Shown in pieces: positions 3,535 to 31,355 of a stretch of 49,203 nucleotides of DNA. Origin of the DNA: Deltaproteobacteria bacterium GWB2_55_19 (GTDB lineage: Bacteria; Desulfobacterota; GWC2-55-46). How positions within the stretch are numbered: position 1 is the first letter of the stretch; each line of letters opens with the position of its first letter. Below the pieces are notes generated by a model that was not told the DNA's origin, did no database searches, and saw nothing but the letters and a program-made list of their open reading frames with translations. The stretch spans positions 56,039 through 105,241 of the forward strand of contig MGPQ01000017.1 of NCBI GenBank assembly GCA_001797465.1, written 5' to 3'. A program made the translations under genes and the position numbers.

Positions 3535-3553
3535 GCAATCTCCACTTGTAAAA

Positions 3554-4648: not shown

Positions 4649-4649
4649 G

Positions 4650-5885: not shown

Positions 5886-5891
5886 GCGCCT

Positions 5892-7968: not shown

Positions 7969-7980
7969 CGCGTTTTCTCT

Positions 7981-9498: not shown

Positions 9499-9544
9499 TA
9501 CCGCCCCTGTGAATGCCCTTGTTTGAGGTTCAGTAAACGCATCA

Positions 9545-11198: not shown

Positions 11199-11215
11199 TC
11201 GCCTGATCCCTGTAT

Positions 11216-12238: not shown

Positions 12239-12253
12239 ACAGCTCCAGCGCAC

Positions 12254-12808
12254 TTAAACAGAGTATTCCCTCATCCTGATAACTTTTGCTGGATTCCCGG
12301 CTACTATCGCATCCTTTGGCACGTCTTTTGTCACTACCGAGCCCGCCCCAACGACCGCGTTGTCTCCTATCGTCACCCCCTTTAATATAGTCACCCTGCC
12401 CCCTATCCAGACGTGATTGCCGATTTTTACAGGACGAACCACGCTCCCATCATAGCCCTTCCCTGATATCTTGTGGTCTTGAGTGTATATCATGACATAC
12501 TCACCCATCATTATGTGGTCACCCAGTATCAGTTCGCCGTTGCCCCTTATCCAAGCGTGATTGCCGATATTAGCGCATTCCCCCATCGTTATAAGATGAC
12601 CGCCAAACCCGAAGTCCGCGTTTTTGCCGACCCCGAATATCTTTCCGGTCTTTTTGAATATCCTCCTGCATACGAATGTCCGGAACTCGTGTGAGAGCCT
12701 GCCGAAAACGCCCCACCTGTCTCCGTACGAGAGCTTTATTGCAAAAAAATAATATATTATATAAAAGAGAAGCCTTTTTGGCGTATGCCTTTTTACCTTA
12801 TCAAACAT
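12254..12808 (-). CDS. LbH acyltransferase (WbbJ/maltose acetyltransferase type)
   Basis: This 184-residue protein has hexapeptide repeats: [40 protein letters not shown], then [20 protein letters not shown] and [19 protein letters not shown], ending [14 protein letters not shown]. The histidine in YTQDHKISG matches the catalytic position of xenobiotic/maltose acetyltransferases. It most likely O-acetylates an EPS sugar with acetyl-CoA. I chose ATG 12808 because of a strong GGAGG seven bases upstream; the frame is open to 12844. The 101 bp to the GT4-deacetylase stop hold nothing I recognise. Confidence 0.85.
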
Positions 12809-12909
12809 AGTCTGTCCTCCGAATACATGAGCGCCGCACATCAAGCTTGCCGACGAAAAAACTGTTCGCAGGCCCTGTCCTCGCGAGGCATCTATTCACG
12901 TCGATTTTC

Positions 12910-17407: not shown

Positions 17408-17422
17408 CTTTCTCCCGGCGCA

Positions 17423-18280
17423 TTACTCATATATCTCTATCTTCTTTTTAGAGGCAGGGCCCTTGAGGTAATCCCTTATGGCGCCTTCGCGAACCGTCTT
17501 CCAGGTCTTTCGGACGACCGCCGGGGTGACCTGTCTGCCGAGATAGAGCCTGCCTTTCCGCGTAAGCGGATGTCTCTTTACGGTCCCATCCTCGATATCT
17601 CCCAAGGCCTTCAGCATCAGCTCTATGCCGAGCTTTACGACCTTGACGTAGAGCGTCTCCTGGTTGTCGTCCTCGGAGATAGCCGGACGGCCCTGATATA
17701 TGATGTCCCCGTCGTCTACGCCCTCACTCACATAGTGGACGGTGGCGCCGACGTACTCGGGTTCCCTGTTGTACACGGCCCAGAGTGTCGTCCAGACACC
17801 CCTGTACCACTGGGCGAGCCCCCCGTGGAGGTTTACCACCCCCTTCGGAGGAATGGCAATTATAGCCTTTTTGAGGATCGAGGTGCCGCATACGGCGATG
17901 ACGTCGGGCTTAAGCGCCCTTATCTCATCCACGTATTCCGGGGCGTTTATCGCCCTTACGCCCTCTGTGCGGACGACCTTTATCCCCGCCCCGGCGCTAA
18001 GCCTTACCCCGTCCTCTCCGAAACCCTCGTAATTTATCCTGTAGGCGAGCTCCCTGTCCCTTTTTCCGTAAAGCCCTTCCTTTACCCTTCCGGAGATGAG
18101 CTTCGGGTTTTTAAGGTATCTGATCCCCTTGGAGAAGAGCGGCTCGCAGGCACGGTTCTGGCTTTCGACAACGACGCCGACGACGTTAGCGCGCTTCAAT
18201 AACTGGTTCGCGAAATAGACGTCCGAGATATCATTGCTTACGAGTACTACGACCCTCTGTTTTCCGGCCTTATTTGTCAC
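17423..18280 (-). CDS. Formyltransferase-family protein (GART/Fmt-like)
   Basis: This 285-residue protein has the hydrolase/transferase core of folate-dependent formyltransferases: PDVIAVCGTSILKKAIIAIP, VVNLHGGLAQWYRG (the N and H of the usual NLHPS..P.YRG; the serine is replaced by glycine) and VDDGDIIYQ (the catalytic Asp). Together these are the Asn-His-Asp triad. It probably formylates an amino sugar or other amine using 10-formyl-THF, as in viosamine or Qui4N formylation; the substrate is unknown. I chose GTG 18280, which overlaps the radical SAM stop (GTGA) and has AAGGG just before it. ATG 18307 is in frame but lacks a ribosome site. Confidence 0.85.
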   Translation of the reverse strand: MTNKAGKQRVVVLVSNDISDVYFANQLLKRANVVGVVVESQNRACEPLFSKGIRYLKNPKLISGRVKEGLYGKRDRELAYRINYEGFGEDGVRLSAGAGIKVVRTEGVRAINAPEYVDEIRALKPDVIAVCGTSILKKAIIAIPPKGVVNLHGGLAQWYRGVWTTLWAVYNREPEYVGATVHYVSEGVDDGDIIYQGRPAISEDDNQETLYVKVVKLGIELMLKALGDIEDGTVKRHPLTRKGRLYLGRQVTPAVVRKTWKTVREGAIRDYLKGPASKKKIEIYE

Positions 18281-19368
18281 AGGCCCTTCTTCAGATAATA
18301 TGAGCATGTCTCGCCGAGCGTCGGGTAATAGACCCGCATGATGCAGTTCTCGCAGACCTTCGTCGTCTTCTTTTTCTGCTCCCTTATGAAGGCCCTGTGC
18401 TTCATGTTGCCCCAGACGGATTCAAGGTCGTCTTTAAGGAGGTTGCCGATCGCGTACCTGTTGTACATGGGGCAGGGCACGACATTACCGAACGGGTCTA
18501 CCGTTATGAATGTCGAGCATATAAGGCACCTTTTGAACTCATGCACGCCCCTTGTGAACGCCTCGTCCTTTGCCATGTCCACGGCCCAGTAATTCACATA
18601 TACCCCTGGCCCGTTCTTTTCGGCCTTCATCTCCTTGACTGTCTCCCTGAACTCTCTGGTCTGCTCGGGGCTTAAGAGGTGCGACTCCCCGTCGCTCGTC
18701 GTAAAGTAAGGCTCTGGGAGTACGCCTCCGACGGCTGAACGAGCGATGTTCTCAGGGCTGAATTCGGCGACGACCCTCGGGTATACGGCGTTTACGGGAT
18801 AATCCTTGAGGAACTCGACTATGTCTTTAAAGTGCGCGAAGTTGAGGTTGGAGATTGTGGTGCAGATGATGATATGCGGCCTCTCTCCCTTCCTTTCGCG
18901 GCAGATGTTCTCTATCGCGCCCTTTACGCGGTCGAAGGTGCCGTCTTGCCCCCGGATGGCGTCGTTCCTCGTGCCTACGTCGTCGAGAGAGATATATATC
19001 GTCCCGAGCCCGGCCTCGACCAGGTTTCTCGCCGTCTCGGCGTCGAGGAGGATGCTGTTAGTCGGAAAGTATGTCTCGATGCCGTTATCCCGGCAGTAAC
19101 GTATCGCCTTGAAGATGATGTCTTTCCTCAAAAGCGCGTCCCCGCCGAATATCTCAAGAGTCTTTATCCCGTAATCCTTCAACTTTTTGAGGATTACCGA
19201 CCACTCCGCCCAGCCGAGCTCCCCGGAGGCCGCGTCCCCGTTCCTCTTCCAGATATTGCAGGTCCGGCAACGGCTCGTGCACCGGTTGGTGAGGTATATC
19301 ATCGCGTCGATGGCGCGGACCCTGTGCCCGTAATATTCCCTTTTGAATGAATTCAGGATGTCTTCCAT
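18277..19368 (-). CDS. Radical SAM/SPASM protein
   Basis: This 363-residue protein has CTSRCRTC at residues 30-37 (Cys 30, 34, 37), the SAM-cluster motif, and LEIFGGDALLRKDI as the 'GGEP'-type second motif. A C-terminal SPASM region carries CLICSTF, VVPCPMYNRY and KVCENCI. A textbook AGGAGG lies six bases before the ATG, the strongest ribosome site in this part of the operon. It overlaps the formyltransferase by 4 bp and follows two acetyltransferase genes by 10 bp. SPASM proteins modify peptides or small molecules by radical chemistry. With no precursor peptide visible next to it, a sugar or lipid-linked substrate is more likely; inference only. Confidence 0.88.
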   Translation of the reverse strand: MEDILNSFKREYYGHRVRAIDAMIYLTNRCTSRCRTCNIWKRNGDAASGELGWAEWSVILKKLKDYGIKTLEIFGGDALLRKDIIFKAIRYCRDNGIETYFPTNSILLDAETARNLVEAGLGTIYISLDDVGTRNDAIRGQDGTFDRVKGAIENICRERKGERPHIIICTTISNLNFAHFKDIVEFLKDYPVNAVYPRVVAEFSPENIARSAVGGVLPEPYFTTSDGESHLLSPEQTREFRETVKEMKAEKNGPGVYVNYWAVDMAKDEAFTRGVHEFKRCLICSTFITVDPFGNVVPCPMYNRYAIGNLLKDDLESVWGNMKHRAFIREQKKKTTKVCENCIMRVYYPTLGETCSYYLKKGL

Positions 19369-19378
19369 GCCGCGCCTC

Positions 19379-20488
19379 CTACGCCGACTCCTTTGCCTTC
19401 CTGAGCCTGCCCCTCACTCCCCGCGCCAGGGGGACGAGACGGGACTCCACGAACAAAAGCATCCTGCCGTAGAGGCGCCCCCTGTAAAAGCTCAGCCTCG
19501 AGCACCTCCTGCCGTCCCCGGTCCAGTGCTCCTTGTAGAAACTCGCCCCGCTCCCCATATCGTACTCACACCTCTCGTTCCTGAAAAGGTGCTCTACTAT
19601 ATGGAAGTCGAGGACCGAGCCCGGCGAGAGGTCCCTGAAGGACTCGTCGAAATCGGCCGTAAGCCCATATATCCTGTTATTGTACCTCAGGTGGTACTCG
19701 AACGCTATCGCCTCGCCGTTCAGCCTCAAGACCCAGATGTCCAGGCCCCCATTTGCGGACATCGCCTCGGAGAGGGCGGTGTAAAAGGCCCTGTTCTCCT
19801 CGGTGCTCGCAATCGACCCCTTTATCGTGTGCTTCCAGCCCTTGAGGCCTATGCCGAAGATGACCGGAAGGGCGCCGGAGACCTCCTCAACGGATGAGTA
19901 CTTCCTCACTGTCACGTCCCCGGCCCTGCCTATCCTGTTGAGTTTGTTCCTTATCGCCTTCTTGAACCGGACGGACCTTCCGCCGTAATACTCCTCCCAC
20001 GGCATGTCCGTCTTGAGTACCGGATAAACGGAGGCCGGATCAACGGTGAACCTTGCCCCCCTAGCCTTGAGCTTTTCTTCGAGCACAGGGAGGTTCGCCG
20101 AATCATCGGGGATGCCCTGCAGGTCGATAAGGTCCCATGCTTCATGGTAGAGCCTCTCCACCATTTCCTCAATGACCTTTTCCCTGTTTTCGGATATGAT
20201 GAAATCGCCGACGGTCCAGTTGGCGTCTCCCATGAAAGCGACCTTCCTTATGGGAAGCCCGCGGAACCTGCCATTGAGCGACATAAGAGGCGCGGCCCCG
20301 ATAATCCTCCCCTCATCTTTGGCGAGGATCACAAGCAGATCTCCCGCCTTGGCGAAGCTCCTCCACCACGAGGCGAGCCACTCGTGGGTAAGGTATACGC
20401 TCCCGCTCGTGCTCCTTAAGAGAAGGCTGTTCCACTCTTCTTTAAGCCTTAAGAAGCCTTCAAGATCCCTTATGCAGACCAATTCCAT
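19379..20488 (-). CDS. BioF2/FemAB-like GNAT acyltransferase (copy 1)
   Basis: This 369-residue protein is of the Acetyltransf_6 (CelD/BioF2-like) type found in EPS and XrtA loci. It shows VYLTHEWLASWWRSF near residue 35, a GNAT core with ALPVIFGIGLKGWKH, LDIWVLRLNGEAIAFEYHLR and NNRIYGLTADFDESF, and the C-terminal DMGSGASFYKEHWTGD, which matches the family's 'G...YK..W' ending. It is paralogous to the next gene upstream, with the same order of motifs. Its first 29 bp overlap the end of that gene. GGAAGG sits eight bases before the ATG. A role in acylating, or adding an amino acid to, an EPS sugar or carrier is inferred from context. Confidence 0.82.
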   Translation of the reverse strand: MELVCIRDLEGFLRLKEEWNSLLLRSTSGSVYLTHEWLASWWRSFAKAGDLLVILAKDEGRIIGAAPLMSLNGRFRGLPIRKVAFMGDANWTVGDFIISENREKVIEEMVERLYHEAWDLIDLQGIPDDSANLPVLEEKLKARGARFTVDPASVYPVLKTDMPWEEYYGGRSVRFKKAIRNKLNRIGRAGDVTVRKYSSVEEVSGALPVIFGIGLKGWKHTIKGSIASTEENRAFYTALSEAMSANGGLDIWVLRLNGEAIAFEYHLRYNNRIYGLTADFDESFRDLSPGSVLDFHIVEHLFRNERCEYDMGSGASFYKEHWTGDGRRCSRLSFYRGRLYGRMLLFVESRLVPLARGVRGRLRKAKESA

Positions 20489-21608
20489 TCAGATACCTTC
20501 CTATGCGCGCCTTTGCCGCGCCCTTTACCGTGAGTATCCGCCTTATTATCCCGGGGCGGTATATCTCTATGTCGGAAAGCCCCCTTGACACCTGCGTCCA
20601 TCTCTTCTTGTAATCGTCCGTCTTACCCATAAGCAGGAAATCGTACTCTTTCAGCCCCGCCCCTATCGCCTCCTCTATCGCGTTTGCGTGGAGGAGGAGC
20701 CCCGGCGCAAGCCCCCTGTCAAAAGAGGCGTCGAGACCGGCCTGAAAAAAATAAACCCTGCCCTTGTAAATTATATTGTAGAGGGCGGCGATGTTCCTCC
20801 CCGCGACCGAGAGGAACGAGAGCCTCAAAAACCCATCCTTAAGCATCACTTCAGATACCGACCGGAGGAACCCCTCGAAACTCCCGCCTGAGAAAGAACC
20901 CGGCTTATTAAGCGCCTCCCACCTCTTCTGATGCAGCCTTTTGAATTCCCTGAAGTCGTCTTCCAGCTCTCCCGGGTCCGTTGTGCTCCTTATAAAGGCG
21001 TCCGCGTGACCCGCAAGCCTTCTCCTCCCGGCCCTTAGCTTCGACCTCATGGAAGGGCTCAGTCCTTCCATGAAAGAGGACCAATCGGCCTGGAGCGGGA
21101 TATAGGGGCATTCGCTCCGCCTTTCCTCGAAACCGAGCCCCGCCCCTTTAGCAAGCCCTTCGAGCATCGAGATGGTCGAAGACGATGAGGGTATTTTATG
21201 CAGGGCGATCGTATCGGCCATGTCGTTTTCGGAGATGTACCGGAAGACGGCCTCCACCACCTCTTCCTCATAGCCAGCCTTCGAGATCATGTCCATGTAC
21301 TCGGAGATGAGCGCCTCGGCGCATGTGCCGAGGAAAAAAAGGCCCCTTGAGGCGTCCACGCCCGCCTCAATCCGGCTCGTCACATAAAACGGCCCAATGC
21401 CCACGAGGTCTTCGCCCTTATAGGCAAGGAGTATCATGAGGCCGCGGTCCTCTCTCTTGTAGGCCTGCCACCAACGGTAGAGCCACTCCCATCTGAGGAA
21501 AAAACTCTCCGCTGGAGAGGCGGCAAGGACCGCGTTCCAGGCCCCTTTCAGGGAGAGGAACCCTTCATCCGTCTCTATCCGCCGTATTTCTATCTGGCTG
21601 TCGGCCAT
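20460..21608 (-). CDS. BioF2/FemAB-like GNAT acyltransferase (copy 2)
   Basis: This 382-residue protein is paralogous to the downstream gene: SFFLRWEWLYRWWQAY mirrors VYLTHEWLASWWRSF, and the core has FREFKRLHQKRWEALNKPGS, LSVAGRNIAALYNIIYKGRV, FQAGLDASFDRGLAPGLLLH and DFLLMGKTDDYKKRW. The tandem pair suggests duplication followed by specialisation. It lies 6 bp after the exosortase gene, so it is co-transcribed. FemAB-like proteins are a known component of XrtA gene sets (TIGR03019), but I judge these two closer to the Acetyltransf_6 type. The reaction is unproven. Confidence 0.82.
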   Translation of the reverse strand: MADSQIEIRRIETDEGFLSLKGAWNAVLAASPAESFFLRWEWLYRWWQAYKREDRGLMILLAYKGEDLVGIGPFYVTSRIEAGVDASRGLFFLGTCAEALISEYMDMISKAGYEEEVVEAVFRYISENDMADTIALHKIPSSSSTISMLEGLAKGAGLGFEERRSECPYIPLQADWSSFMEGLSPSMRSKLRAGRRRLAGHADAFIRSTTDPGELEDDFREFKRLHQKRWEALNKPGSFSGGSFEGFLRSVSEVMLKDGFLRLSFLSVAGRNIAALYNIIYKGRVYFFQAGLDASFDRGLAPGLLLHANAIEEAIGAGLKEYDFLLMGKTDDYKKRWTQVSRGLSDIEIYRPGIIRRILTVKGAAKARIGRYLNGIGLHKGS

Positions 21609-21614
21609 AAGCGC

Positions 21615-23126
21615 TTAAGGTATGAACCTCGTAAGCTCGGGTATCATTGCGCCCGCGAACCCCTCAAGCGCCTCCTTCGGCTCCGCCCCGTCCAGGTCCT
21701 CGGCGTTTATCGTAACGAAAGCGCCTCCCGTGCCCCTCCCCATCAGGGAATTAAAGGCCGTATGGAAGATGACGTCATACCTTCCAGCGACGACCCTGCC
21801 GTTGATCATGTACCAGAAGAGCGTTGTCGTCCTCCGCCCTCCCGCTTCAATAGTTTTTTTGTTGACCGCGGCCTCTGCGCCGGTGGAGAGCTTTATTCGT
21901 ATCGGAGCGGCGCCGTTGTGGAAGGCGGAACTCCTGAAATTCACGAGCTCCCTGCCCTGCGACTGCGACTCGAAGTACCCGATATTGAGCGTTATATCTA
22001 CTCCGGCCCCGCGGTATCTGCGCGTGAGCCCCTGGTCCGCGCCGGACTCCTTCCTCATCTGGTCCGGCATATCAGCACCGGCCGCGGCAAGTCCGTTGAC
22101 CATAAGCGGAAGCATCCTCAGGTCTTCCTTCAACGGGACCGGGGGGTTTGAACGAAAGCTGACAAAGAGACCGGCAACAACGAGCAATACGAGGGTAATT
22201 ATAAGCGGCGCGTTCCGGGCGGCAGGAAACGCGCCGTGCTTATCCTGTGCGCCGTCTTCGGCCTTTCGCCCCCCTTCGCCTCTTGAGAGTATCCAGACCC
22301 CGGCAAATAGGACTATGTACCCGGCGAAGGACACCACCATCGCGTGGAGGACATGAAGCGGCCCGTGGAGGTCGCCGGCGAGGTTGTGGTAAGCGAGAAA
22401 GCCTATCAGCGTCACCCTTGCGGCATTGGCCAGGACCGACATGATGAGCGCACCCGCAACGAGGGCAACCCTCCTCCACCAGCCGCGTAGCGCGACGTAC
22501 GCGAGCGGGACCCCTATCGCCGCCACGGAGACGAGGTAATTGACTCCGCTGCACACCTTCGCTACCTCGAGCGTTATATTCGGGAGCTCGATGTATATCG
22601 ATTCCCTGTACGCCGGGATGTGCATGACCTGAAGCAGTTTCGCGCCCACGCCCGCGGAAAAATTCTGGAATGGATAATGGAGCCCCTCGGTCAGCTCGCC
22701 CCAGGATGTGAGCATGAACGCAAGGTAGAGTAGCGGGAAGAGGACCGCTTTAAGGACGGGCCACCCGAAGACGAACGCCACCGCCCCGAGCATCGTCAGC
22801 ATGAGCGAGAGCTCCTCGAGGGCTAATACCCCTGCCGCGCGCCCGATGATAAAGGCCGCGAGCCCCGTTGCGAGGAGCGGCGCGCCCCAGAGGCCGCCGG
22901 AGACGGGCGTCCCCTTGAGCGACCCGGCCTTTCTCCGGATCAGGTATGCGCTTATAAACGGTATCAGGAACCCGTGGGAATAGACCGGGTTCGTCCACCA
23001 GGTGACGGCGAGCGTGGATAAGAGGCTTATGTAGCAGAAAAAAACGCCGAGCGAGACGAGCGCGGCCTGGATGACCGTCATGGCCCCCTCGCTCGGCGCC
23101 GCCGTTGTTTTTTCCGCCGCGCCCAT
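21615..23126 (-). CDS. xrtA: Exosortase A fused to EpsI-type domain
   Basis: This 503-residue protein is a sorting transpeptidase of the inner membrane. Residues 1-285 are the exosortase: YSHGFLIPFISAYLIRR (49-65) is the family hallmark. The catalytic triad is Cys192 in VCSGVNYL, Arg237 in NAARVTLIG and a His in LHVLHAMVV (258 or 261). Eight or so helices surround them. After a hydrophilic linker (281-305) and one helix (307-324), residues 330-503 form the EpsI/DUF3485 domain (YRGAGVDITLNIGYFESQSQ). This A-type fusion is known in XrtA systems, which cleave PEP-CTERM tails and are tied to EPS. No PEP-CTERM protein is encoded in the window. The start overlaps the deacetylase stop (TAATG). Confidence 0.92.
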   Translation of the reverse strand: MGAAEKTTAAPSEGAMTVIQAALVSLGVFFCYISLLSTLAVTWWTNPVYSHGFLIPFISAYLIRRKAGSLKGTPVSGGLWGAPLLATGLAAFIIGRAAGVLALEELSLMLTMLGAVAFVFGWPVLKAVLFPLLYLAFMLTSWGELTEGLHYPFQNFSAGVGAKLLQVMHIPAYRESIYIELPNITLEVAKVCSGVNYLVSVAAIGVPLAYVALRGWWRRVALVAGALIMSVLANAARVTLIGFLAYHNLAGDLHGPLHVLHAMVVSFAGYIVLFAGVWILSRGEGGRKAEDGAQDKHGAFPAARNAPLIITLVLLVVAGLFVSFRSNPPVPLKEDLRMLPLMVNGLAAAGADMPDQMRKESGADQGLTRRYRGAGVDITLNIGYFESQSQGRELVNFRSSAFHNGAAPIRIKLSTGAEAAVNKKTIEAGGRRTTTLFWYMINGRVVAGRYDVIFHTAFNSLMGRGTGGAFVTINAEDLDGAEPKEALEGFAGAMIPELTRFIP

Positions 23127-23968
23127 TACCTTTTCAGCCTCTCGGCAAATACCTCTTCAATGGTGCCGAACCTGAAACGCTCGATGAGCCTTTCAAGCTT
23201 CGCGGCGGTCTTATCGATGTTCACATAATGCCTGAACTTCGAAAACCCGGTGCCGTTCAGCCTGGGCTGTCCAGTATCGAGCTCCCAGGGATGAAAGTAT
23301 ATGATCGCCGGCTGGCGCTCCGTCTTGTTCAGATACCGTATGCCCCACTCAAGGAACTTTATCGGGAACATCCGGAGATACCCTCCACCGGCTATGGGGA
23401 TGTTCTTCCCGAAGAGGCGCACGGTGGAAAGCGGCAGTTCGAGGATATTGCCCACGCCGTCCCTGTCGAGGTTTACGGCGAAGCGGCTGAAGTCCGGATA
23501 CCCGTAGCGGTCGTGGTGGATGGGGAAGATGCTCGAATCATACGCGAACCCCTCCTCTATGAGCACGTCGAGCGCCCACATGGATTCCCTGGTTATGGAA
23601 TAGCTCGGGGCCCTGTATCCTCTCACGGGCATCCCGCTTATCCCCTCGATAATCCCCTTGGACTTTCTTATGTCCTCGCGGAACTCATCCCGCGAGAGGT
23701 CGTAGGCGAGCCTGTGGTTGTACCCGTGGCACGCGATCTCATGTCCATTGCTGGCGATCTCCCTTACGATGGCCGGATGATGCTCCGCGACCCACCCGAG
23801 GATGAAAAAGGTCGCCTTGAGGTCATGGCCGCCGAGGAGCGCGAGGACGTCGGCCGTGGCCTTCTCGACCCGGCTCTCGTAACTCTTCCAGTCCCCGAAG
23901 CTCACCACTCCGGAAAAGGCGGATACCATGAAGTAATCTTCTATGTCTATCGTAAGCGCGTTTAGCAA
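23126..23968 (-). CDS. XrtA-associated polysaccharide deacetylase (DUF3473 type)
   Basis: This 280-residue protein matches the TIGR03006-like deacetylase that accompanies exosortase A. It has ALTIDIEDYF at residues 4-13 (Asp 8 and 11), HEIACHGYNH at 76-85 (the metal His pair H81, H85), RGYRAPSYSI at 116-125 (motif 3) and the DUF3473 tail AIIYFHPWELDTGQPRLNG. There is no signal peptide. The start codon is TTG; the frame has no ATG nearby, and family members begin almost exactly here. It is the first gene after the ops-like leader, so its transcription marks entry of polymerase into the distal 22 kb. It would N-deacetylate the EPS. Confidence 0.9.
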   Translation of the reverse strand: MLNALTIDIEDYFMVSAFSGVVSFGDWKSYESRVEKATADVLALLGGHDLKATFFILGWVAEHHPAIVREIASNGHEIACHGYNHRLAYDLSRDEFREDIRKSKGIIEGISGMPVRGYRAPSYSITRESMWALDVLIEEGFAYDSSIFPIHHDRYGYPDFSRFAVNLDRDGVGNILELPLSTVRLFGKNIPIAGGGYLRMFPIKFLEWGIRYLNKTERQPAIIYFHPWELDTGQPRLNGTGFSKFRHYVNIDKTAAKLERLIERFRFGTIEEVFAERLKR

Positions 23969-23978
23969 GGTTTTCAGG

Positions 23979-23990
23979 CAGGCTACCGCC
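23979..23990 (-). promoter_or_regulatory. ops-like RfaH recruitment element
   Basis: The minus strand reads GGCGGTAGCCTG, matching the E. coli ops element GGCGGTAGCGTG at 11 of 12 positions. It lies 10 bp upstream of the deacetylase start and 186 bp downstream of an RfaH/NusG-like gene, on the transcribed-sense strand. In enterobacteria ops pauses RNA polymerase and recruits RfaH, which then suppresses Rho-dependent termination. The match is seen directly; function is inference. A similar-quality match in antisense orientation inside an unrelated gene (44206) shows that chance hits occur. Confidence 0.55.
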
Positions 23991-23993
23991 GTT

Positions 23994-24014
23994 CAGGTGC
24001 GCTCGGCGCACCTG
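23994..24014 (-). other. Hairpin just before the ops-like element
   Basis: CAGGTGCG and CGCACCTG form a perfect 8-bp stem around a five-base loop. There is no U-tract on either side, so it is not a simple terminator. Its place four bases before the ops-like motif suggests a transcription-pause or RNA-structure role. Confidence 0.5.
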
Positions 24015-24061
24015 TCTCCCCAAAAGAAAGGCAGGGTCAGGGAATAAGCCCCCTCGATTAC

Positions 24062-24073
24062 TCAGCTACCGGG
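24062..24073 (-). promoter_or_regulatory. Second GGTAGC core, JUMPstart-like
   Basis: The minus strand reads CCCGGTAGCTGAG here. Enterobacterial JUMPstart leaders contain an upstream GGTAGCTG box as well as ops, and this box resembles it. The spacing to the ops-like site is about 75 bp, longer than in JUMPstart. The rest of the 23969-24175 leader repeats GGGGCTTATT twice (near 24046 and 24098, minus strand) and has no clear promoter. Confidence 0.35.
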
Positions 24074-24175
24074 GAGGGGGCGATTGCAGGCTCAATAAGC
24101 CCCTTGACCATTCTCAGGGCTTTTCAACAAACGCTTATGCCCGCTTCGTACTGTAAAATCAGGAAGGGGCTCAGG

Positions 24176-24676
24176 CTATGATATCTTCAGAAGGAACGCC
24201 CTGTCCACCACCGCTCTCGCGTTCACGGTCTTAAGGAGTATGGAGACCCTCTCGGTGTCCTTGATCTCTTTTTCAAATACCGCGTCGAACCCCTCGAACG
24301 GGCCGGCCTTTATCTGGACCGCGTCGCCGGCGCTGAATACTTCCCTGCCGAAGGTTATTAATCCCCCCTCGGTCCTGCGCTCGATCGAGGATATTATATC
24401 CTCCGCCACCGGGGTCGGGCAGTTCTCCGACCCGACGATCTTCCTTACGCCCCTGGAGTACTTGACGAGCCTGAAGTTCCTGAAGATGTCGAACCTGATG
24501 AACAGATAACATGGGAAGAGCGGGCTCACGGTCTCGACGGCCCTGCGCCTTACGCACCTGCGCTCCTTCACCCTGGGGTTAAGCACCTCGAAGCCCAGAC
24601 CGGCGAACTTCTTCTCCAGCGCGTCCTCGTTCCTGGGTTTCGTGTATACGAGATACCACTTGCGCCCTTCCGTCAT
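24176..24676 (-). CDS. RfaH/NusG-like specialised antiterminator
   Basis: The protein has 166 residues. Residues 5-105 form an NGN domain (RKWYLVYTKPRNEDALEKKF, then PLFPCYLFIRFDI and GVRKIVGSE), which binds the RNA polymerase clamp. Residues 112-150 form a KOW domain (GDAVQIKAGPFEGFDAVF). The length and the charged VKERRCVRRRAVE loop suit RfaH/UpxY/LoaP-type paralogs rather than housekeeping NusG. Such factors keep polymerase going through long polysaccharide operons. It overlaps the sugar transferase by 4 bp and is followed by a 207-bp leader bearing an ops-like site, so it probably acts in cis-like fashion on the genes below it. Confidence 0.88.
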   Translation of the reverse strand: MTEGRKWYLVYTKPRNEDALEKKFAGLGFEVLNPRVKERRCVRRRAVETVSPLFPCYLFIRFDIFRNFRLVKYSRGVRKIVGSENCPTPVAEDIISSIERRTEGGLITFGREVFSAGDAVQIKAGPFEGFDAVFEKEIKDTERVSILLKTVNARAVVDRAFLLKIS

Positions 24677-26064
24677 CTTGCTCCCCTGCCTGTAAGCACC
24701 ACCTTTATGGTCCTCAAAAATATCATGACGTCCATGAGGGGCGACATGTTCTTTATGTAGTATATGTCGTACTGGAGTTTCTCAAGCGCGTCCTGGACCG
24801 TCGCGCCGTAGGGATATTTTACCTGCGCCCAGCCGGTGAGGCCGGGTTTGACCACGGTCCTTATCTCGTAGTACGGGATGACCTCCTTGAGCTTCTGGAC
24901 GAAGAACGGCCTCTCGGGCCTGGGTCCGACGAAGCTCATGTCGCCCTTTATCACGTTTATGAGCTGCGGAAGCTCGTCGATCCTTATCTTCCTTATGACT
25001 CTGCCGACCCGGGTCACCCTGTCGTCGGTTGCGCCTGCCCACACCGGCCCGCTCTTTGCTTCGGCGTCTGCGCACATGGAGCGGAACTTGTAGATATTGA
25101 ACAACTTGCCGTTCTCGCCTACGCGGACCTGGCTGAATATCGACGCCCCCTTTGATTCGAGCCTTATTATCAGGGCGGTCAGTACGAGCACGGGCAACGA
25201 TATGACGAGACAGACGACGGCGAGGGCGACGTCGAACATCCTTTTTACGATCTTCCTCGATCTCAGGGACTTGAACCCGTCGGAGAAGACCATCCAGCTG
25301 GGTTTCAGATGATTAAGCGGTATCTGCCCCGTCATCCTCTCGTTGAAGGTCTCGCCCTCCTCGACCTCGACTCCCTTCAATTTGCAATCGAGGAGCGCCG
25401 CCATGGGGAGCTTGGCCCGCCTGTCCGGGAGCGCCACGATTATCATGTCGATTTTTTCGGCGTCAATCACCCTCATTATGTCCCCGTAGCCGCCTATGAC
25501 GCCGGGGTTTACGATGGAGACGCCCTGTTTCTCCGGGTCGTCGTCTATGAAGCCGACGAGCCTGAACCCGTCCCATGTGCTCTTGTATATCTCCTGGCCT
25601 ATTTTCTTCGCGAGCCCCTCGGAGCCTATTATTAGGACGTTCTTGGACGGGAGCTGCTTGCTAATCGAGCCGAAGATCCACCTCCAGAAGAGCACGGCCG
25701 CCGGGGTGGTTATCGTGTTTATGAGGAGTATCCCCCTCCATGTAAAGAATATCGGCAGGAGATAGAATATGCTTGATAAGGCCAGGGCGGCCGCGAGCGA
25801 AGCGGCAAGGAGCTTTACGAACATGACCCGGCCGGGCCGGTACATCTCGGCGGAATAGAGGTCGAACGCGGAAAAAGACACAAGGTAGGTTATGGTTATG
25901 GCGCCGGTCTTTAAAAATGCGGGATCGTAATTCACCACGCTCCCGTAATCCAGCCTGAACCTTATGGCCGCCGAGAGGAGCGCCGCGGCGAAGATGATGA
26001 CGCCCTCCGAAAGCACTACCAGGACCTGCTTCGGGGAAAAATGCCTGTTTAACATGAATAACAT
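24673..26064 (-). CDS. Undecaprenyl-phosphate sugar-1-phosphate transferase, XrtA-associated (TIGR03013 type)
   Basis: This 463-residue PNPT/WbaP-like enzyme starts the repeat unit by moving a sugar-1-phosphate onto undecaprenyl phosphate. The N-terminal half has four or five helices and then a CoA_binding_3-like domain (NVLIIGSEGLAKKIGQEIY). The catalytic C-terminal domain has KRMFDVALAVVCLVISLPVL (membrane re-entrant helix), FNIYKFRSMCADAEA, RKIRIDELPQLINVIKGDMS, VGPRPERPFFV and VVKPGLTGWAQVKYPYG. That last pattern is typical of the PEP-CTERM-linked EpsB_2 family. AGGAG sits nine bases before the ATG. It is 12 bp after the autokinase, so it is co-transcribed. Confidence 0.92.
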   Translation of the reverse strand: MLFMLNRHFSPKQVLVVLSEGVIIFAAALLSAAIRFRLDYGSVVNYDPAFLKTGAITITYLVSFSAFDLYSAEMYRPGRVMFVKLLAASLAAALALSSIFYLLPIFFTWRGILLINTITTPAAVLFWRWIFGSISKQLPSKNVLIIGSEGLAKKIGQEIYKSTWDGFRLVGFIDDDPEKQGVSIVNPGVIGGYGDIMRVIDAEKIDMIIVALPDRRAKLPMAALLDCKLKGVEVEEGETFNERMTGQIPLNHLKPSWMVFSDGFKSLRSRKIVKRMFDVALAVVCLVISLPVLVLTALIIRLESKGASIFSQVRVGENGKLFNIYKFRSMCADAEAKSGPVWAGATDDRVTRVGRVIRKIRIDELPQLINVIKGDMSFVGPRPERPFFVQKLKEVIPYYEIRTVVKPGLTGWAQVKYPYGATVQDALEKLQYDIYYIKNMSPLMDVMIFLRTIKVVLTGRGAR

Positions 26065-26076: not shown

Positions 26077-27087
26077 CTAATAATAATACTTGCCGAGCTT
26101 TATGTCGGCGCCGTTCAGCACCACGCCGACCACATTGCACTTTGAAAGGGACTTAAACGCCTTCAACACTATGTCTTTCTGGGTCTTCCCCGCCCTTACC
26201 ACCATGATGACCCCGTCTACAAGCCTCGATATCACGTTCATATCGACGAGCGGGAGCACCGGGGGGGAGTCCACCAGCACATAATCGAATTCGGCCTTGA
26301 GCGAATCTATGACCCCCGCTATCCTCGACGACCCGAGTATCTCGGAGGTCTTTCTTGTGATGTTGCCGGCCGGGAGTATGAAGAGCCCTGTATCCTCCAC
26401 CTGGAGTATGGACGCGTGCAGCTCGGCCTCTCCCTTCAGTATGTCCGAGAGCCCCTGGGCGCAGGCAGGCTCCAGAAGCTCAGCCACGGTCGACGGCTTC
26501 CTCAAATCGCACTCGACCATGACCACCCTTTTTTTGAACTCTGTGGCCATCACATAGGCGAGGTTAAGCGATGTAACTGACTTGCCCTCGCCCTTTATCG
26601 CGCTCGTTATAGCGAAGACCGACGACGGCTTCTTCTGGTTTATCTGCTCGATGTTGGTGAAGAGCACCCTGTACTGCTCGGCGACCATCTGGTCGGATTC
26701 CAAGGCCTCGATCGGCCTTTTAAACCTTGCGCGGCTGTACTTGAAATGCCTCTTGGTGGAGCGCTCCGGCGAAGAAGACGGGAGCCCGAAGCTCTTTCTC
26801 AGGGACTCCAGGTCGACCTCCGGGGTGCACTCCTCCTGCGCGGGCGCGAGGCAGAGCTCGCTGTCGTAGGCGGCCCTCTTCTGCCGGTCCATGAGCGTAG
26901 CATGCGCCTCGTTAAGCTCGCCGACCCTCTCGGCCCTCTCTTCCTCGGTGTAAAGCGAGTAAACGGCGACCGAGTCGGTCCCGTAGACCGCCATCGCCTT
27001 CCTGTACGAATCCTCTATTTCTCCTTCGGAGACGCCCGGGCTGAGATTCAATATCCTGTAGTAGTCCTTTACCATGCGCTTGTCCAT
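26077..27087 (-). CDS. XrtA-type tyrosine autokinase (CpsD-like) with N-terminal J-like domain
   Basis: The protein has 336 residues. Residues 130-336 form a BY-kinase: Walker A SAIKGEGKS (162-170), Walker A' VVMVECDLRKPST (188-200), Walker B YVLVDSPP (269-276) and a C-terminal tyrosine cluster GKYYY (332-336) for autophosphorylation. It works with the separate Wzz protein, as in CpsC/CpsD pairs, to control chain length. Unusually, residues 7-76 resemble a DnaJ J-domain: DYYRILNLSPGVSEGEIEDS for helices I-II and LNEAHATLMDRQKRAAYD for helix IV. The HPD tripeptide is missing (VYGTD in its place), so it should not stimulate DnaK. It may be a docking module. It is 4 bp after the MinD-like gene. 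Confidence 0.9.
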   Translation of the reverse strand: MDKRMVKDYYRILNLSPGVSEGEIEDSYRKAMAVYGTDSVAVYSLYTEEERAERVGELNEAHATLMDRQKRAAYDSELCLAPAQEECTPEVDLESLRKSFGLPSSSPERSTKRHFKYSRARFKRPIEALESDQMVAEQYRVLFTNIEQINQKKPSSVFAITSAIKGEGKSVTSLNLAYVMATEFKKRVVMVECDLRKPSTVAELLEPACAQGLSDILKGEAELHASILQVEDTGLFILPAGNITRKTSEILGSSRIAGVIDSLKAEFDYVLVDSPPVLPLVDMNVISRLVDGVIMVVRAGKTQKDIVLKAFKSLSKCNVVGVVLNGADIKLGKYYY

Positions 27088-27091
27088 CTCC

Positions 27092-28123
27092 TCATGCCCC
27101 CGCCTTCGTAGCGCGTCTTGCGCGCGGGCCTATGACGCCGTTCAGGCACGCCTCTATCGACGCGGCCGCCCTGGACGAAGGGTACTCGTTCACCAGGGGG
27201 CGCCTCAACCTTATCGACTCCGCCACGCAGTCCTCCGAGGCTATGTAGCCCGCCGCCCTTATGTCCACCCCAAAGTAGTCTTGACAGGCCCGCGATACCG
27301 CGGCCCCGAGGGCTTCGTCTTCCTGCCTCCTCACAAAGTTGACGACCACGGATATCGAAGTGTCCCCCATGAGGCGGCGGAGCGTCTCACCCCTTTCGGA
27401 GTCGAGCTCTTTAAGATGGCGTATGATGTCCGCTACTGTCTTCACCTTGAGCGACCATTCGGGGTTCTCGAATATCCTCTTCAAAAGGCCCTTGAGCTCC
27501 AGGTCGCCGTGTGAGTTGATGACGTTCCTCATCCGGCGCAATATCAGGCATTTTATGAACCTGTATGTGTTCTCGATTGAAGTCGGCTCCGGCGTCGTTA
27601 CGAGGATACCCTCGTCGCCTGAAAGGAACAGGTCGAGCATGTTCGAGGCGGTGCCGGGGCCGACGTCCATGAGTATGTAATCGTAGTCGAGGGTCCCGAG
27701 CGCCGCCTTCAGCTTTTCAATCTTATCGCTGCCCGCGTCGGCTATGTCGAGCGAGTCCCTTGCGCCGCTTATAAGGTCGAGGTTCGGTATGGAGGTCTTC
27801 GATACAAGGTCGGCGATCTCCGCCACCTTGTTGTTCAGAAAGCTCGAAAGCGAGAGCCTGCCGCCGTCCATGCCGAGGAAGGTGTGCAGGTTCGACGCCC
27901 CGAGGTCCGCGTCGACGAGGAGGACCCTATGTCCGGACTTCGACAGGAGCACCCCCATGTTCGAGGCGATAAGGCTCTTGCCGACGCCGCCCTTGCCGCC
28001 GCCGATCGTCCAAAGCCCCGCGGCCGGGCCGGGCGCCGCCAGAACGACCTCGAGTCTCGGCGCCTCCTGGGGCGCATTGCCGCCTTTTTGCGCCTTCTGG
28101 AATATCCTGCTTATAATCCCCAT
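27092..28123 (-). CDS. MinD/ParA-like P-loop ATPase
   Basis: This 343-residue ATPase of the FlhG/MinD type has the deviant Walker A GGGKGGVGKS at residues 41-50, VLLVDADLGASNLHTFLG (Walker A'; 67-84) and YDYILMDVGPGTASNM (Walker B region). It has no tyrosine cluster, so it is not a BY-kinase. The first 35 residues are a basic, proline-rich extension (MGIISRIFQKAQKGG), perhaps for membrane binding. It sits one base after the Wzz gene and 4 bp before the autokinase. Proteins of this type position flagella or secretion machines. Here it could place the EPS export complex at a pole or regulate the kinase; both are inference. Confidence 0.87.
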   Translation of the reverse strand: MGIISRIFQKAQKGGNAPQEAPRLEVVLAAPGPAAGLWTIGGGKGGVGKSLIASNMGVLLSKSGHRVLLVDADLGASNLHTFLGMDGGRLSLSSFLNNKVAEIADLVSKTSIPNLDLISGARDSLDIADAGSDKIEKLKAALGTLDYDYILMDVGPGTASNMLDLFLSGDEGILVTTPEPTSIENTYRFIKCLILRRMRNVINSHGDLELKGLLKRIFENPEWSLKVKTVADIIRHLKELDSERGETLRRLMGDTSISVVVNFVRRQEDEALGAAVSRACQDYFGVDIRAAGYIASEDCVAESIRLRRPLVNEYPSSRAAASIEACLNGVIGPRARRATKAGA

Positions 28124-28124
28124 G

Positions 28125-29645
28125 CTATTTGCCGCCGCTTACAATCTTCAGATATCCCCGCTTCTTTTCCGTCTGCTTTTTTTGAAACACCGGTATCGAG
28201 GCAAGCACCTGGTACGGCAGGACGGCCTCAAGCTCCTCCGGCTTCCTGAACGCGGGGTTCAGGTACTCCATCATGAATATCAGCCCGAGGCCCGCGCCCA
28301 CGCCGGCCGCAAGGCCTCCGAAAGCGACCTTCATCTTGTCGTTCTTGTAGGGGCGCTCCGGGAGGTTCGCGGGGTCTATGACCTTGAACCTCTCGCCCTT
28401 CTGCCTCTTTTCCATGTTCTCGGCGAGCCGCGCGTTCAGCTTCTTTTCAAGGAGGGTCTGATAATTCTTGAACGAGATGTCGTAGTCCCTGTGAAGGTCC
28501 GACATCCTCTGCTCGTTCGCCGGCGAGTCCTCAACCCTTTTCTCGTACTCCTTTATCTGCCTGCGCACCCCCGCCTCCCTCTCGCTGAGGGCGGCTATCT
28601 GCGCCTTGTATTCGCCTCCGCCGTAGGTCCTCGCAGGTTTTTTCGCGTCCGCGCCGTCCTTGTCAGAAGGGCTCTCCCTGGCCTCGATCCGGGATTCGAT
28701 ATCCTGGATGCGGTTCTTTACGATTATTATGTCCGGGTAGCTCTCTTTATACGTGGAGCGCAGGAACGCGAGCTCGTTATTGAGCCTCTCAAGCTCCGCC
28801 TCAAGCGAGACCTGCCTGCCGCCGGCGGACGGGCTATTGACAGCCGCGCCAGCCGCCTCTTCCTGGACGATCTTTCTCTCCTCGGCCGCGCGCATGGCGA
28901 TATTCAGCGACTGGAGCTCCATCTGGAGCCTGTCGAGCGTGCGAAGATTTGCCTCGAGCTGTTCGGGGAGACTGCCCATGCGGGATTCCTTGAAACGCCT
29001 CAGGGCCCTTTCCTGCACCTCAAGGTCCTGCTTGGCCCTGTCGAGCTCGTTAGAGAGGAACTCGGAGGTCCCTTCCGCGTACTGCTCCCTGGCCTTGAGG
29101 TTCTCGTCGATGAAGAACGACGCCAGGGTGTTCGTCACCTGCATTGTGACGTAAGGGTCCTTTCCGGTGTAATTTATGCTGAAGGCGTCGCCGCCCTTCT
29201 TGCTGTCGCCCATGACCTTTATCTCGATATCCCTGCGGAGCATCTCTATCAGGTCCTCCCTGCCGGCGGCCTCCGTCTTGCCGAGGCCTAAGCGCCCTGA
29301 CATGGATCCCAACAGGCCGCCGCCGTCCGTCCCCTTATAGAGGTTGAAGTCCTCGACTATCTGCTCGAGCCTGGACCGGCTCAATATCTGCTGTTTTATG
29401 GTATTGAGCCTCTCGACGAACGGGGTCTTATCGGTGGGCATCACGTACTGCTCGGGGACCTGCTGTTGCTCGACGAGTATGAGCGTGGTGGAGCGATAGC
29501 GGACCGGTAGCGACCTGCTTATGACGAGCCCTGCGAGCGTGCATAAGATTACAGGCGCTATGAGGACCCACTTTCTGAGATAGACAATCTCGGCCAACTC
29601 GAGTAAATCCTTGTGATCCTTGCCGGATGACATCATATGCTCCAA
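28125..29645 (-). CDS. Wzz-type polysaccharide co-polymerase, XrtA-associated (TIGR03007 type)
   Basis: This 506-residue inner-membrane protein has two transmembrane segments: WVLIAPVILCTLAGLVISRS near residue 31 and a C-terminal KVAFGGLAAGVGAGLGLIFM near 450. Between them lies a periplasmic domain with the Wzz fold (FVERLNTIKQQILSRSRLEQ) and long coiled coils (KAREQYAEGTSEFLSNELDR and LEAELERLNNELAFLRSTYK). The proline-rich segment before TM2 (IDPANLPERPYKN) is typical. It sets chain length with the autokinase. Its first 13 bp overlap the barrel gene. The length fits the family, longer than E. coli Wzz because of the coiled coils. Confidence 0.9.
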   Translation of the reverse strand: MEHMMSSGKDHKDLLELAEIVYLRKWVLIAPVILCTLAGLVISRSLPVRYRSTTLILVEQQQVPEQYVMPTDKTPFVERLNTIKQQILSRSRLEQIVEDFNLYKGTDGGGLLGSMSGRLGLGKTEAAGREDLIEMLRRDIEIKVMGDSKKGGDAFSINYTGKDPYVTMQVTNTLASFFIDENLKAREQYAEGTSEFLSNELDRAKQDLEVQERALRRFKESRMGSLPEQLEANLRTLDRLQMELQSLNIAMRAAEERKIVQEEAAGAAVNSPSAGGRQVSLEAELERLNNELAFLRSTYKESYPDIIIVKNRIQDIESRIEARESPSDKDGADAKKPARTYGGGEYKAQIAALSEREAGVRRQIKEYEKRVEDSPANEQRMSDLHRDYDISFKNYQTLLEKKLNARLAENMEKRQKGERFKVIDPANLPERPYKNDKMKVAFGGLAAGVGAGLGLIFMMEYLNPAFRKPEELEAVLPYQVLASIPVFQKKQTEKKRGYLKIVSGGK

Positions 29646-30766
29646 TTTAGAGGCGTCAAGGTGACATTGATAAACACCTGGTCCCTGTCAAAGTCCTCGT
29701 CCGGGGCGCCCTCGCCCCGCTGCTCGAAATGTGAATAGCCGCCGGATATCCGCATCCATCCCCTCGGTTGCCAGTAAGAGCCTAACTTCGCGTCGTACGA
29801 CGCTATATCCACTTCGCCGGAAGGCTCGGAGACTGTGTCGCCGAGGCTCAGGGAAAGGGTCAGGCCAGAGGACTCTCCAAGCGTCTTCGCGACCCCGGCA
29901 TAGAGCCTGTTCGCTACGCTTAGCTCTCCGGAGAGCCCGCTCGAGTGGGTGATGTCCCTCGTGAAGCCGGCGTTCACGGCGCCCCACTTGAACTCCTTTA
30001 CGGCCGAGGCGTCGATAGCCCAGTCCGCGCGCGCGCCGTCCCCGGAAAGCACAAGGCCGGCCGAGAGGCTCGCGGATAGGCTTTCTGAAAACTTTTTAGA
30101 CAACTCTATTGACACCTTATGGACATCCTCGTCTCCCGCCCCATCCGTCTCGAAGTGATATCTGGAGTAAACATACCCCATTTTAAAGGCCGCGAGGTCC
30201 GTATACGCGTAACGCCACGACGCCGACGCGCCATCGACCCGCGTGTCAACAAGTGACGGGCTGTCAAAGTCTATGACCGAGTCTTCAATGGTGATTTCCA
30301 GGGCGGCCTTTTCCGTAATTTCCTTGGTAAAACCGAGTTCCGCCGTATTGGAAAATATTTCCGCGTAGTCCGTCTGTACGCCGGCATCGAGGGCAACGAT
30401 GGAATCCCTGGACTTCTTCAGGGTATCCCTGAAATCCACCTTCAAGCCGTTTGAGACCGCGAGGTCCGCCTCCAGGTCCGCGCTTTGCGAGGTGTAATCG
30501 AGACCAGTTTCTTTCTGGTAGAAGGCGGCGCTCAATTCGTAAGCCCCCTTGAATTTGAGCTTCCTGGATCCCGAGGTCACATGGACCGCCGGCGAAAGCC
30601 TCGTGACGAAGTCGGAAGAGGCGACAGCGTCAAAGGCCGGGTTGCTGTCGTACCTCTCCTCGACCGTGAACTGAGGTCTGACGACCGTCTCGGCCGTAGC
30701 CGCGCCTGTTATGGTGAAAGACAACGCCAGGGCCAGTAGGCCTGCTCTGCCTGGTTTACGGCACAA
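29633..30766 (-). CDS. Outer-membrane beta-barrel protein
   Basis: The 377-residue protein has a signal peptide (RAGLLALALSFTITGAATA) and then alternating polar/hydrophobic strands rich in aromatic and glycine residues: KLKFKGAYELSAAFYQKETG, TDLAAFKMGYVYSRYHFETD, GLTLSLSLGDTVSEP and RGWMRISGGYSHFEQRGEG. The pattern suits a barrel of about 16 strands, like the outer-membrane proteins of XrtA loci (TIGR03016-like). It likely forms or lines the exit pore for the EPS, since the Wza-like protein here is short. The start is TTG and overlaps the export gene by 11 bp, with GGGGGA about eight bases upstream. Confidence 0.82.
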   Translation of the reverse strand: MCRKPGRAGLLALALSFTITGAATAETVVRPQFTVEERYDSNPAFDAVASSDFVTRLSPAVHVTSGSRKLKFKGAYELSAAFYQKETGLDYTSQSADLEADLAVSNGLKVDFRDTLKKSRDSIVALDAGVQTDYAEIFSNTAELGFTKEITEKAALEITIEDSVIDFDSPSLVDTRVDGASASWRYAYTDLAAFKMGYVYSRYHFETDGAGDEDVHKVSIELSKKFSESLSASLSAGLVLSGDGARADWAIDASAVKEFKWGAVNAGFTRDITHSSGLSGELSVANRLYAGVAKTLGESSGLTLSLSLGDTVSEPSGEVDIASYDAKLGSYWQPRGWMRISGGYSHFEQRGEGAPDEDFDRDQVFINVTLTPLNWSI

Positions 30767-31355
30767 AGACGGTGTCCCCCGGCTTTAATAGGACGGACCC
30801 GTCCTTTTTGTCGGAAAGGAGGTCGTCGAACTTTACCCTTATCTTCTCCTCGCCGCCGCCTTGCTTCTGGCGGACGAGGACCATGCTGTTCTTCGAGGCA
30901 TACTGCGTAAATCCGCCCGCGAGCGCGATCGCCTGGAGCAATGTGGTCCTGGACTTCAGCGCGTACGTGCCGGGCGCCTTGACCTCGCCTATCAGGTAGA
31001 CCTTGTAGCTCCTTATCTCCTGGACTATGACCGAGACTACGGCAGTAGACTGGTACTCCTTGAGCCTCTCGACTATGCCGTCGCGGAGCTCGCTTGGCGT
31101 AAGCCCCGTTGCCTGGACATCCCCTATCAGCGGTAGCGATATCTTGCCGTCAATCCTTACGAGGACCGTCTTTGATATCTCCGGGTTCTTCCAGACCGAG
31201 ATCTCGAGGATGTCCTCGGGGCCTATCTGGTAAGACGCCTCGGCAGGCGGCTGTCTCTCCCCTGCAACGACCGCGCCTCCGGGGATGAACAAAAGGGAGA
31301 GCGCCGCGAACAGGGCCGGTAGCGCGATAAACATCAGGAAACGCGGGGTCTTCAT
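30756..31355 (-). CDS. Wza-like polysaccharide export protein, short form
   Basis: The 199-residue protein has a signal peptide (MKTPRFLMFIALPALFAALS), the Poly_export domain (YQIGPEDILEISVWKNPEIS, then IDGKISLPLIGDVQATGLTP) and one SLBB domain (VYLIGEVKAPGTYALKSRTT). It ends GDTVFVP, a usual final motif. There is no lipobox cysteine, and it is about half the length of E. coli Wza. It matches the short export proteins of XrtA loci (TIGR03027-like), which rely on a separate outer-membrane partner, here probably the barrel protein downstream. AAGG sits eight bases before the ATG, and a candidate extended -10 promoter lies in the 64-bp gap upstream. Confidence 0.92.
   Translation of the reverse strand: MKTPRFLMFIALPALFAALSLLFIPGGAVVAGERQPPAEASYQIGPEDILEISVWKNPEISKTVLVRIDGKISLPLIGDVQATGLTPSELRDGIVERLKEYQSTAVVSVIVQEIRSYKVYLIGEVKAPGTYALKSRTTLLQAIALAGGFTQYASKNSMVLVRQKQGGGEEKIRVKFDDLLSDKKDGSVLLKPGDTVFVP

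Follow-up and report, generated by a model that had tools for sequence, protein, structure and literature searches.

A conserved hairpin-ops element downstream of an RfaH-like NusG paralog gene: a candidate cis-acting control cassette for exopolysaccharide operons

Introduction

How does an RfaH-like factor that is encoded inside a polysaccharide operon find the operon that it serves? In-operon NusG paralogs are already known, for example UpxY and TaA (PMC7593976), and their recruitment was called unknown in 2019-2020 (PMC6391919, PMC7593976). Recruitment in cis has been proposed as the way in which a new paralog finds its target (PMC7819879, citing Belogurov 2009), and a preprint of 2026 links RfaH homologs that are constitutively active with operons in their vicinity (PMC13015549). 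The question is raised here by a stretch of 49,203 nucleotides from the uncultured Deltaproteobacteria bacterium GWB2_55_19, the whole of which is called the window, in which an RfaH-like gene is followed by an ops-like element and by a long series of exopolysaccharide (EPS) genes. The original prediction, made from the letters of the window alone, had drawn attention to this order of factor gene and ops. We have evaluated the arrangement by profile searches, by comparison with related loci and by scans for structures, promoters and further target sites.

Results

Organization of the locus

The minus strand of the window carries a long exosortase/EPS locus. Its features are given below in the order in which they would be transcribed.

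26077..31355, minus: proximal genes for proteins resembling XrtA-system export, outer-membrane and chain-length determinant proteins (best models below cut-off), with a MinD-like ATPase and a tyrosine autokinase
24673..26064, minus: initiating sugar transferase EpsB_2 (TIGR03013; 482.7 bits, cut-off 393.35), directly 5' of the paralog
24176..24676, minus: RfaH-like NusG paralog, 166 aa (Pfam NusG, 60.9 bits)
24048..24081, minus: second leader hairpin, 8 bp, found by eye, with GGTAGCTG (24063-24070) in its loop
23994..24014, minus: 9-bp hairpin with a loop of 3, ending 3 nt before ops
23991..23993, minus: 3-nt linker AAC
23979..23990, minus: ops-like element GGCGGTAGCCTG on the transcribed-sense strand, 11/12 bases as in E. 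coli ops
23126..23968, minus: XrtA-system polysaccharide deacetylase (TIGR03006), the first gene past ops
21615..23126, minus: exosortase W (NF038142; 584.6 bits, cut-off 425)
1553..21608, minus (all-minus orientation assumed; a few ORFs unscanned or unmatched): distal genes for glycosyltransferases, acetyltransferases, a flippase-type protein, a Wzy_C protein, deacetylases and others

The ATG of the paralog overlaps the stop codon of the sugar transferase gene, so the two genes are very likely co-transcribed. Beyond ops lie about 22 kb of EPS genes, about 20 kb of them past exosortase W, and the TTG start of the deacetylase is placed 22 nt past the first ops base. A second Wzz-type chain-length gene (41316-42476) is located outside the main EPS run. 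Just upstream of that run (31420-31791 and 32154-36230) are genes for a PilZ-domain protein, a LuxR-type regulator and a hybrid histidine kinase, which could possibly exert upper-level control over it.

The RfaH-like factor

The gene at 24176-24676 had been predicted to encode a NusG/RfaH paralog, and the profile searches bore this out. The protein belongs to the NusG family (60.9 bits against a Pfam cut-off of 22.2), and its best NCBIfam model is RfaH (TIGR01955, an equivalog model) at 100.6 bits, under the curated cut-off of 144.5. The UpxY model (NF033644; 57.0 bits, cut-off 100) and the LoaP model (NF033641; 41.9 bits, cut-off 125) did not reach their cut-offs. A profile built from relatives returned E. 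coli RfaH chains as the closest solved structures (4.8e-26). The Pfam search of the genome detected two NusG-family genes, the window paralog and one on another contig (C6), which we have taken for the housekeeping NusG.

Residues K10 and R73 have been named as DNA-binding residues of RfaH (PMC7593976). Their counterparts in the window factor are K13 and R75. The RfaH residues H20, R23 and Q24, which we take to be ops contacts, are not kept in the window protein, and over 63 loci the association between an RfaH-like [TS]R pair and the presence of the element was not significant (p 0.08). At the position of RfaH E48 the window factor has a serine; in E. coli RfaH an E48S change results in both folds being equally populated (PMC3905879). 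AlphaFold gave an all-beta C-terminal domain for the window factor, and this domain also came out as beta in a comparison protein from gamma-proteobacteria that has the glutamate of E48. The prediction therefore tells little about autoinhibition, and its use as evidence of constitutive activity was dropped because it did not discriminate between the two proteins.

The leader downstream of the factor gene

The paralog and the deacetylase gene are separated by a leader of 207 bp. The ops-like 12-mer of the original prediction could be read back from its sense strand, with the single difference from E. coli ops (GGCGGTAGCGTG, taken from E. coli strain C). The hairpin that had been described before ops is also present and touches ops via 3 nt, and its length proved to be 9 bp rather than 8 bp; this hairpin has no T-run. 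When the entire leader was folded to minimum energy, the arms of the second, 8-bp hairpin were paired otherwise. Within the window neither motif occurred above chance, GGCGGTAGC with at most one mismatch giving 15 matches against 14.9 expected and GGTAGCTG giving 1 match against 1.1 expected. The Rfam JUMPstart family (RF01707) matched 23979-24004 with 16 bits (E 0.88), short of its gathering score of 35. It was one of three permissive matches in the leader; the other two, both to eukaryotic families, were attributed to chance. Since gathering scores were not attained by any Rfam family in the window, the idea of a riboswitch was set aside.

Conservation of the gene-then-ops order

In an effort to determine whether the order of gene and element is kept, as the original prediction had proposed to check on relatives, the protein was compared by tblastn (E below 1e-15) with 59 genomes, its own included, and 31 paralog loci were obtained. 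The core GGCGG[T/C]AGC was found on the sense strand 59-224 bp past the paralog stop in 29 of the 31. The core takes the form GGCGGTAGC except in two loci that have GGCGGCAGC, and it is commonly extended to TGCACCTGAAYGGCGGTAGCCYRYCC (the rows were picked by the core, so its invariance reflects selection). The core is missing from L024 and L026, which have about 33% identity and diverge more than any other of the 31 loci. The second box did not fare as well. The original prediction had likened GGTAGCTG to a feature of JUMPstart, and among the 31 loci it occurs between stop codon and ops in the window's own genome only; the nearest relative (L004) has a similar second stem without the box.

A wider scan of named genomes added the best 80 of 534 related stretches. 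The pool of relatives and these 80 comprised 98 distinct loci, 95 of them with at least 60 bp downstream of the gene. A sense-strand core within 400 bp downstream was present in 44 of the 95, as compared with no antisense core, one match to the reversed pattern, and about 0.8 cores expected from the rate elsewhere in the same loci (0.0083 per 400 bases). Within 400 bp upstream of the paralog the core was detected in 6 of the 95 loci, one of them (L025) being spurious owing to gene truncation, and never in antisense. Because the element is conserved across relatives, we consider the ops of the window to be real, though it is not above chance in the window alone. That the 12-mer merely resembles ops by chance, for which its unexceptional frequency within the window would speak, has a negligible probability given one place kept in 29 of 31 loci and the strand specificity over the 95 loci (relatives plus the best 80 of 534). 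The observation of an ops following the NusG/RfaH paralog is thus confirmed at the level of sequence.

The distribution of the element is uneven. Among the matches listed, the row labels of downstream elements were Deltaproteobacteria/Myxococcota, Nitrospirota and one Chromatiales, with one Acetobacteraceae row as a doubtful addition. Of the 96 rows of a tree, 47 have a downstream element (ops base 6 being T, C or A) and 3 an upstream element (two Verrucomicrobiota and one Imhoffiella); 43 lack both, and 3 are too short to score. The closest clade had a downstream element in 28 of 28 rows, and the element labels required 16 changes on the tree against 33.1 with shuffled labels. A survey of the phylum, covering 297 genomes, yielded 82 paralog loci (E up to 1e-20), of which 22 have a downstream element and 1 an upstream element, while 55 have none and 4 are too short; no antisense core was found in 38,786 bases. 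The cassette is a rule in some lineages and missing from others, and many more distant paralogs are without the element. In two Verrucomicrobiota loci, L104 and L112, a very similar ACCTGAATGGCGGCAGCTTG precedes the paralog, by about 500 and 22 bp. L079 has, besides its downstream element, an extra ACCTTAACGGCGGCAGCCTGCC 427 bp before the paralog gene, which possibly serves self-activation.

Base preferences within ops

The E. coli RNA polymerase pauses in ops at U11 (PMC11001881). Position 11 is a pyrimidine and position 12 a purine in 44 of 44 loci and in 60 of 61 elements of an enlarged set, and these two positions had played no part in selecting the elements. At base 6, which in E. coli ops is the flipped-out T, 50 of the 61 elements have T, 7 have A and 4 have C. 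Loci with A at this base include L109, L114, L120, L222, L246 and L250, and the A is possibly a natural specificity change. Base 10, a G in E. coli, is mostly C here (50/61).

Spacing and covariation of the hairpin before ops

The enlarged set of 61 elements, a few of which are doubtful (L119 and L284, for example), was used to evaluate the hairpin. A stem with at least 4 outer pairs ends exactly 3 nt before ops in 48 of the 61, and the same stem criterion was satisfied in 13-23 of 61 at spacings 0-2 and 5-8 and in 37 at spacing 4. The linker is AAC or AAT in 45 of 61. When only unique 3' arms were counted, 29 of 40 paired at spacing 3, against 13.8 of 40 (sd 2.7, highest 23 in 2000) after 5' regions had been exchanged among loci; the register score chooses the best register by design, and the swap control was equally free to do so. 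Each of the four outer pairs is formed by five or six pair types among the 29 pairing arms. An earlier set of 48 elements gave a comparable outcome, 37 of 48 at spacing 3 with a swap mean of 21.6 and a highest value of 31 in 1000. The hairpin arms before ops covary across loci.

RNAalifold on a MAFFT alignment recovered just 3 pairs, all of them within the ops hairpin, since loops of unequal length left the arms unaligned; the arms were therefore scored by register with swap controls. Folding energies compared with 30 shuffles were less striking, with 13 of 44 single leaders better than 95% of their shuffles. The window's own hairpin (0.07) is not among these 13, and 4 of the 44 leaders have no hairpin under the energy rule. 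One locus of a relative (L021 in G019) carries two tandem hairpin-ops elements 39 bp apart, which have different stems and share the AAC-GGCGGTAGCC / AAC-GGCGGTAGCCCA core. Seven related genomes have two cassettes each with the ops core GGCGGTAGCC in common, and the 3' hairpin arm differs in 6 of the 7; in G003, one of these six, one cassette is without a clear hairpin.

These results bear on a LoaP-like explanation, in which the factor would read the RNA hairpin and ops would be merely a pause. Covariation of the hairpin and the differing arms beside a shared ops core in the two-cassette genomes fit such a factor, as does the leader hairpin needed by LoaP (PMC12691694). Against this stand the sequence of the hairpin, which varies widely while that of ops hardly does (the rows having been chosen by the ops core), and the better score of the factor with the RfaH model (100.6 bits) than with the LoaP model (41.9 bits). 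We regard a LoaP-like mode as quite improbable.

Search for trans targets

The pattern GGCGGYAGCNYRYC occurs once in this genome, which makes the leader element the single extended element by pattern. Across five genomes GGCGGYAGCNYRYC was found at 23 sites and its reversed control at 14. Seven of them follow a paralog gene, and the remaining 16 are without the AAY linker and overlap predicted ORFs. The shorter AAYGGCGGTAGCY was not enriched in the 59 genomes, with 41 sites in 24 genomes against about 65 for the reversed control. A paralog gene precedes 27 of these 41 sites; the other 14 abut predicted ORFs or overlap them and are not continued by YRYC, and by eye, unscored, they are without the hairpin. 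AAYGGCGGYAGCYYRYC was likewise not enriched in the 297 phylum genomes, where it matched 33 sites in 27 genomes and its reversed control 31. Its sites divide into 14 downstream of a paralog, 3 near a contig edge (260 bases at most), 10 in ORFs, by a weak flag that fired on some linked sites too, and 6 elsewhere, of which all but L234 and L235 were inspected. The non-chance feature of the short ops patterns is their place behind the paralog gene and not their genome-wide number. One family, f64 (G152, G274, G333), has candidate sites on contigs other than that of the paralog, and this may be a lineage whose factor acts in trans, or chance.

Promoters, terminators and first genes around the cassette

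The distal genes could alternatively have a promoter of their own at the end of the factor gene, so that ops would sit in an ordinary 5' leader and the factor, acting in trans, would be a mere neighbour. The window itself offers a promoter-like sequence with 10/12 matches (24207-24178) that overlaps the end of the factor gene, and its leader could therefore be a separate 5' UTR. In a scan for the sigma-70 consensus only, however, such sites between gene and hairpin were not enriched, being found in 2 of 44 loci (the window and L095) against 4.3 expected. In the tightest loci, moreover, ops follows the stop by 59-69 bp, which leaves roughly 35-45 bp before the hairpin. The absence of a second extended element from this genome also speaks against a factor working in trans, and the f64 sites, some possibly before other genes, speak for it. 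Terminator-like hairpins with T-runs lie between gene and ops in 5 of 44 loci (L007, L013, L036, L037 and L095) against 0.7 expected, and these too are in keeping with separate transcription of the distal genes; three of the loci (L013, L036, L037) belong to one subclade, where either partial readthrough or a promoter would be required. Taking both sides together, we judge an independent leader unlikely.

The same terminator-like structures, together with the adjacency of the element to the factor gene, might indicate autoregulation, with hairpin and ops pausing or attenuating the polymerase that leaves the factor gene and with distal control being secondary. The window hairpin has no T-run to match such a role, and in 30 of 43 loci no more than 60 nt separate ops from the start of the next gene (crude start calls). 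Lying past the factor gene, the element should also not boost the transcription of that gene itself. Autoregulation as the principal function seems to us very unlikely. An SD-like motif precedes 11 of the 30 next-gene starts within 60 nt of ops as compared with 23 of 43 paralog starts, a Shine-Dalgarno difference that is only suggestive, the start calls being crude.

The first gene past ops could be compared in those 40 of the 44 loci that gave an ORF. In 12 of these 40 it matches the family of initiating sugar transferases; asparagine-synthase-like amidotransferases and DUF3473 deacetylases account for 6 each and GDP-mannose dehydratase type proteins for 4, and these commonest families are those of envelope polysaccharides. 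The original prediction had further suggested a two-stage relay, in which the proximal module would be made first and the factor would then license the distal module. As a reading of the window this would be possible. As a general logic it fails, since the initiating transferase is itself the first gene past ops in 12 of 40 loci, and the terminator-like hairpins of 5 of 44 loci would complicate it. In several loci the nearest co-directional upstream ORF of more than 120 codons ends at least 200 bp before the factor gene. A crude gene caller applied to 14 stretches missed the paralog in 4 and gave co-directional runs of 2 to 15 genes after the paralog in the other 10, two of which were closed after 2 genes by an opposite-strand call; no weight was placed on these runs.

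Discussion

A proposed cis-acting cassette

These data are best read as loading of the encoded factor at the internal ops, because the order is conserved among close relatives, sense-specific, accompanied by a covarying hairpin and represented in this genome by a sole extended element. By analogy with E. coli RfaH, the arrangement is probably a cis-acting, RfaH-type control cassette, in which the factor would load at the hairpin-ops element after its own gene and serve the EPS genes beyond. RNA polymerase would transcribe the factor gene and, about 160 nt past its stop, meet the hairpin, the 3 nt and ops. The ops bases fit the known pause, with the RNA end at position 11 and a purine next, and ops could form a small non-template DNA hairpin, GGC-GGTA-GCC, like that read by E. 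coli RfaH. If the E. coli model applies, the polymerase would pause there and fresh factor would dock on the exposed ops strand, displace NusG and shield the polymerase from Rho. The factor would then couple the polymerase to the ribosome, so that the roughly 22 kb of EPS genes would be both transcribed and translated. At the pause the RNA hairpin would be about 13 nt behind the RNA end, where it probably stabilizes the paused complex or restricts backtracking; alternatively, it may be an address that is read by the factor. The factor may act mainly on its own operon.

A more specific version of cis loading, which we put forward tentatively and hold to be rather doubtful, couples it to translation. 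Having just transcribed the factor gene, the polymerase would wait at ops for the factor that the ribosome following it is completing, and the variable hairpin would be a paralog-specific address. This version, if true, would explain why there is one ops per factor and why a genome may have several separate gene-element pairs, and it would give a reason why strict autoinhibition may be dispensable. It would also mean that the ancestral cis recruitment suggested for NusG paralogs survives today.

Relationship to known systems

The cassette resembles the E. coli RfaH/ops/JUMPstart system in its NusG paralog, ops core, hairpin before ops, polysaccharide targets and pause bases. It differs in that rfaH of E. 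coli lies apart from the several leaders that its product controls in trans, whereas here the factor gene adjoins the element and comes first. The linker is 3 nt here, while our own reading of the JUMPstart sequence of E. coli strain C is a CTGG/CCAG stem, 1 nt and ops. The variable hairpin sequence, the serine at the E48 position and an RfaH model score below cut-off are further differences. The EAR/epsC RNA sits inside the operon and is, to our knowledge, a structured RNA without a link to any NusG paralog gene. Like this RNA of Bacillus eps operons, the present element would be an antitermination element tied to EPS operons (PMC2864571). A conserved JUMPstart stem-loop has already been reported, and the hairpin-ops plan is listed for JUMPstart in gamma-proteobacteria (PMC2864571).

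Bacteroides UpxY is likewise a NusG paralog inside the polysaccharide operon that it serves (PMC7593976, PMC7819879), but the leader in which UpxY acts precedes the gene of UpxY, while the element described here comes after the gene. The LoaP system, with its dfn/mln leader hairpin, shares a NusG paralog, a leader hairpin and a downstream pause; LoaP binds the RNA hairpin, and the available text describes no ops (PMC12691694), which is present here. Monomorphic RfaH homologs lie in or beside long operons and are thought to be recruited in cis, and the available text makes no mention of an ops downstream of the gene (PMC13015549), where one is found here. An in-operon order of factor and target, which the original prediction had called notable, is accordingly known from UpxY and TaA. 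What is new, as far as it can be read from the DNA, is the syntax of the putative recruitment site, namely gene, hairpin, 3 nt and ops. A conserved ops after a paralog's own gene was not described in the literature searched, from which most subscription papers and supplements were absent.

Implications

The locus and its relatives provide a concrete candidate loading site beside the factor gene in several phyla, and they extend the hairpin-ops plan from gamma-proteobacteria to distant bacteria. Recruitment is made testable by natural variants, which include T, C or A at base 6, different hairpins, a tandem pair and upstream placement. The gene-then-signal order found in many relatives suggests how operon-encoded helpers find their own operon.
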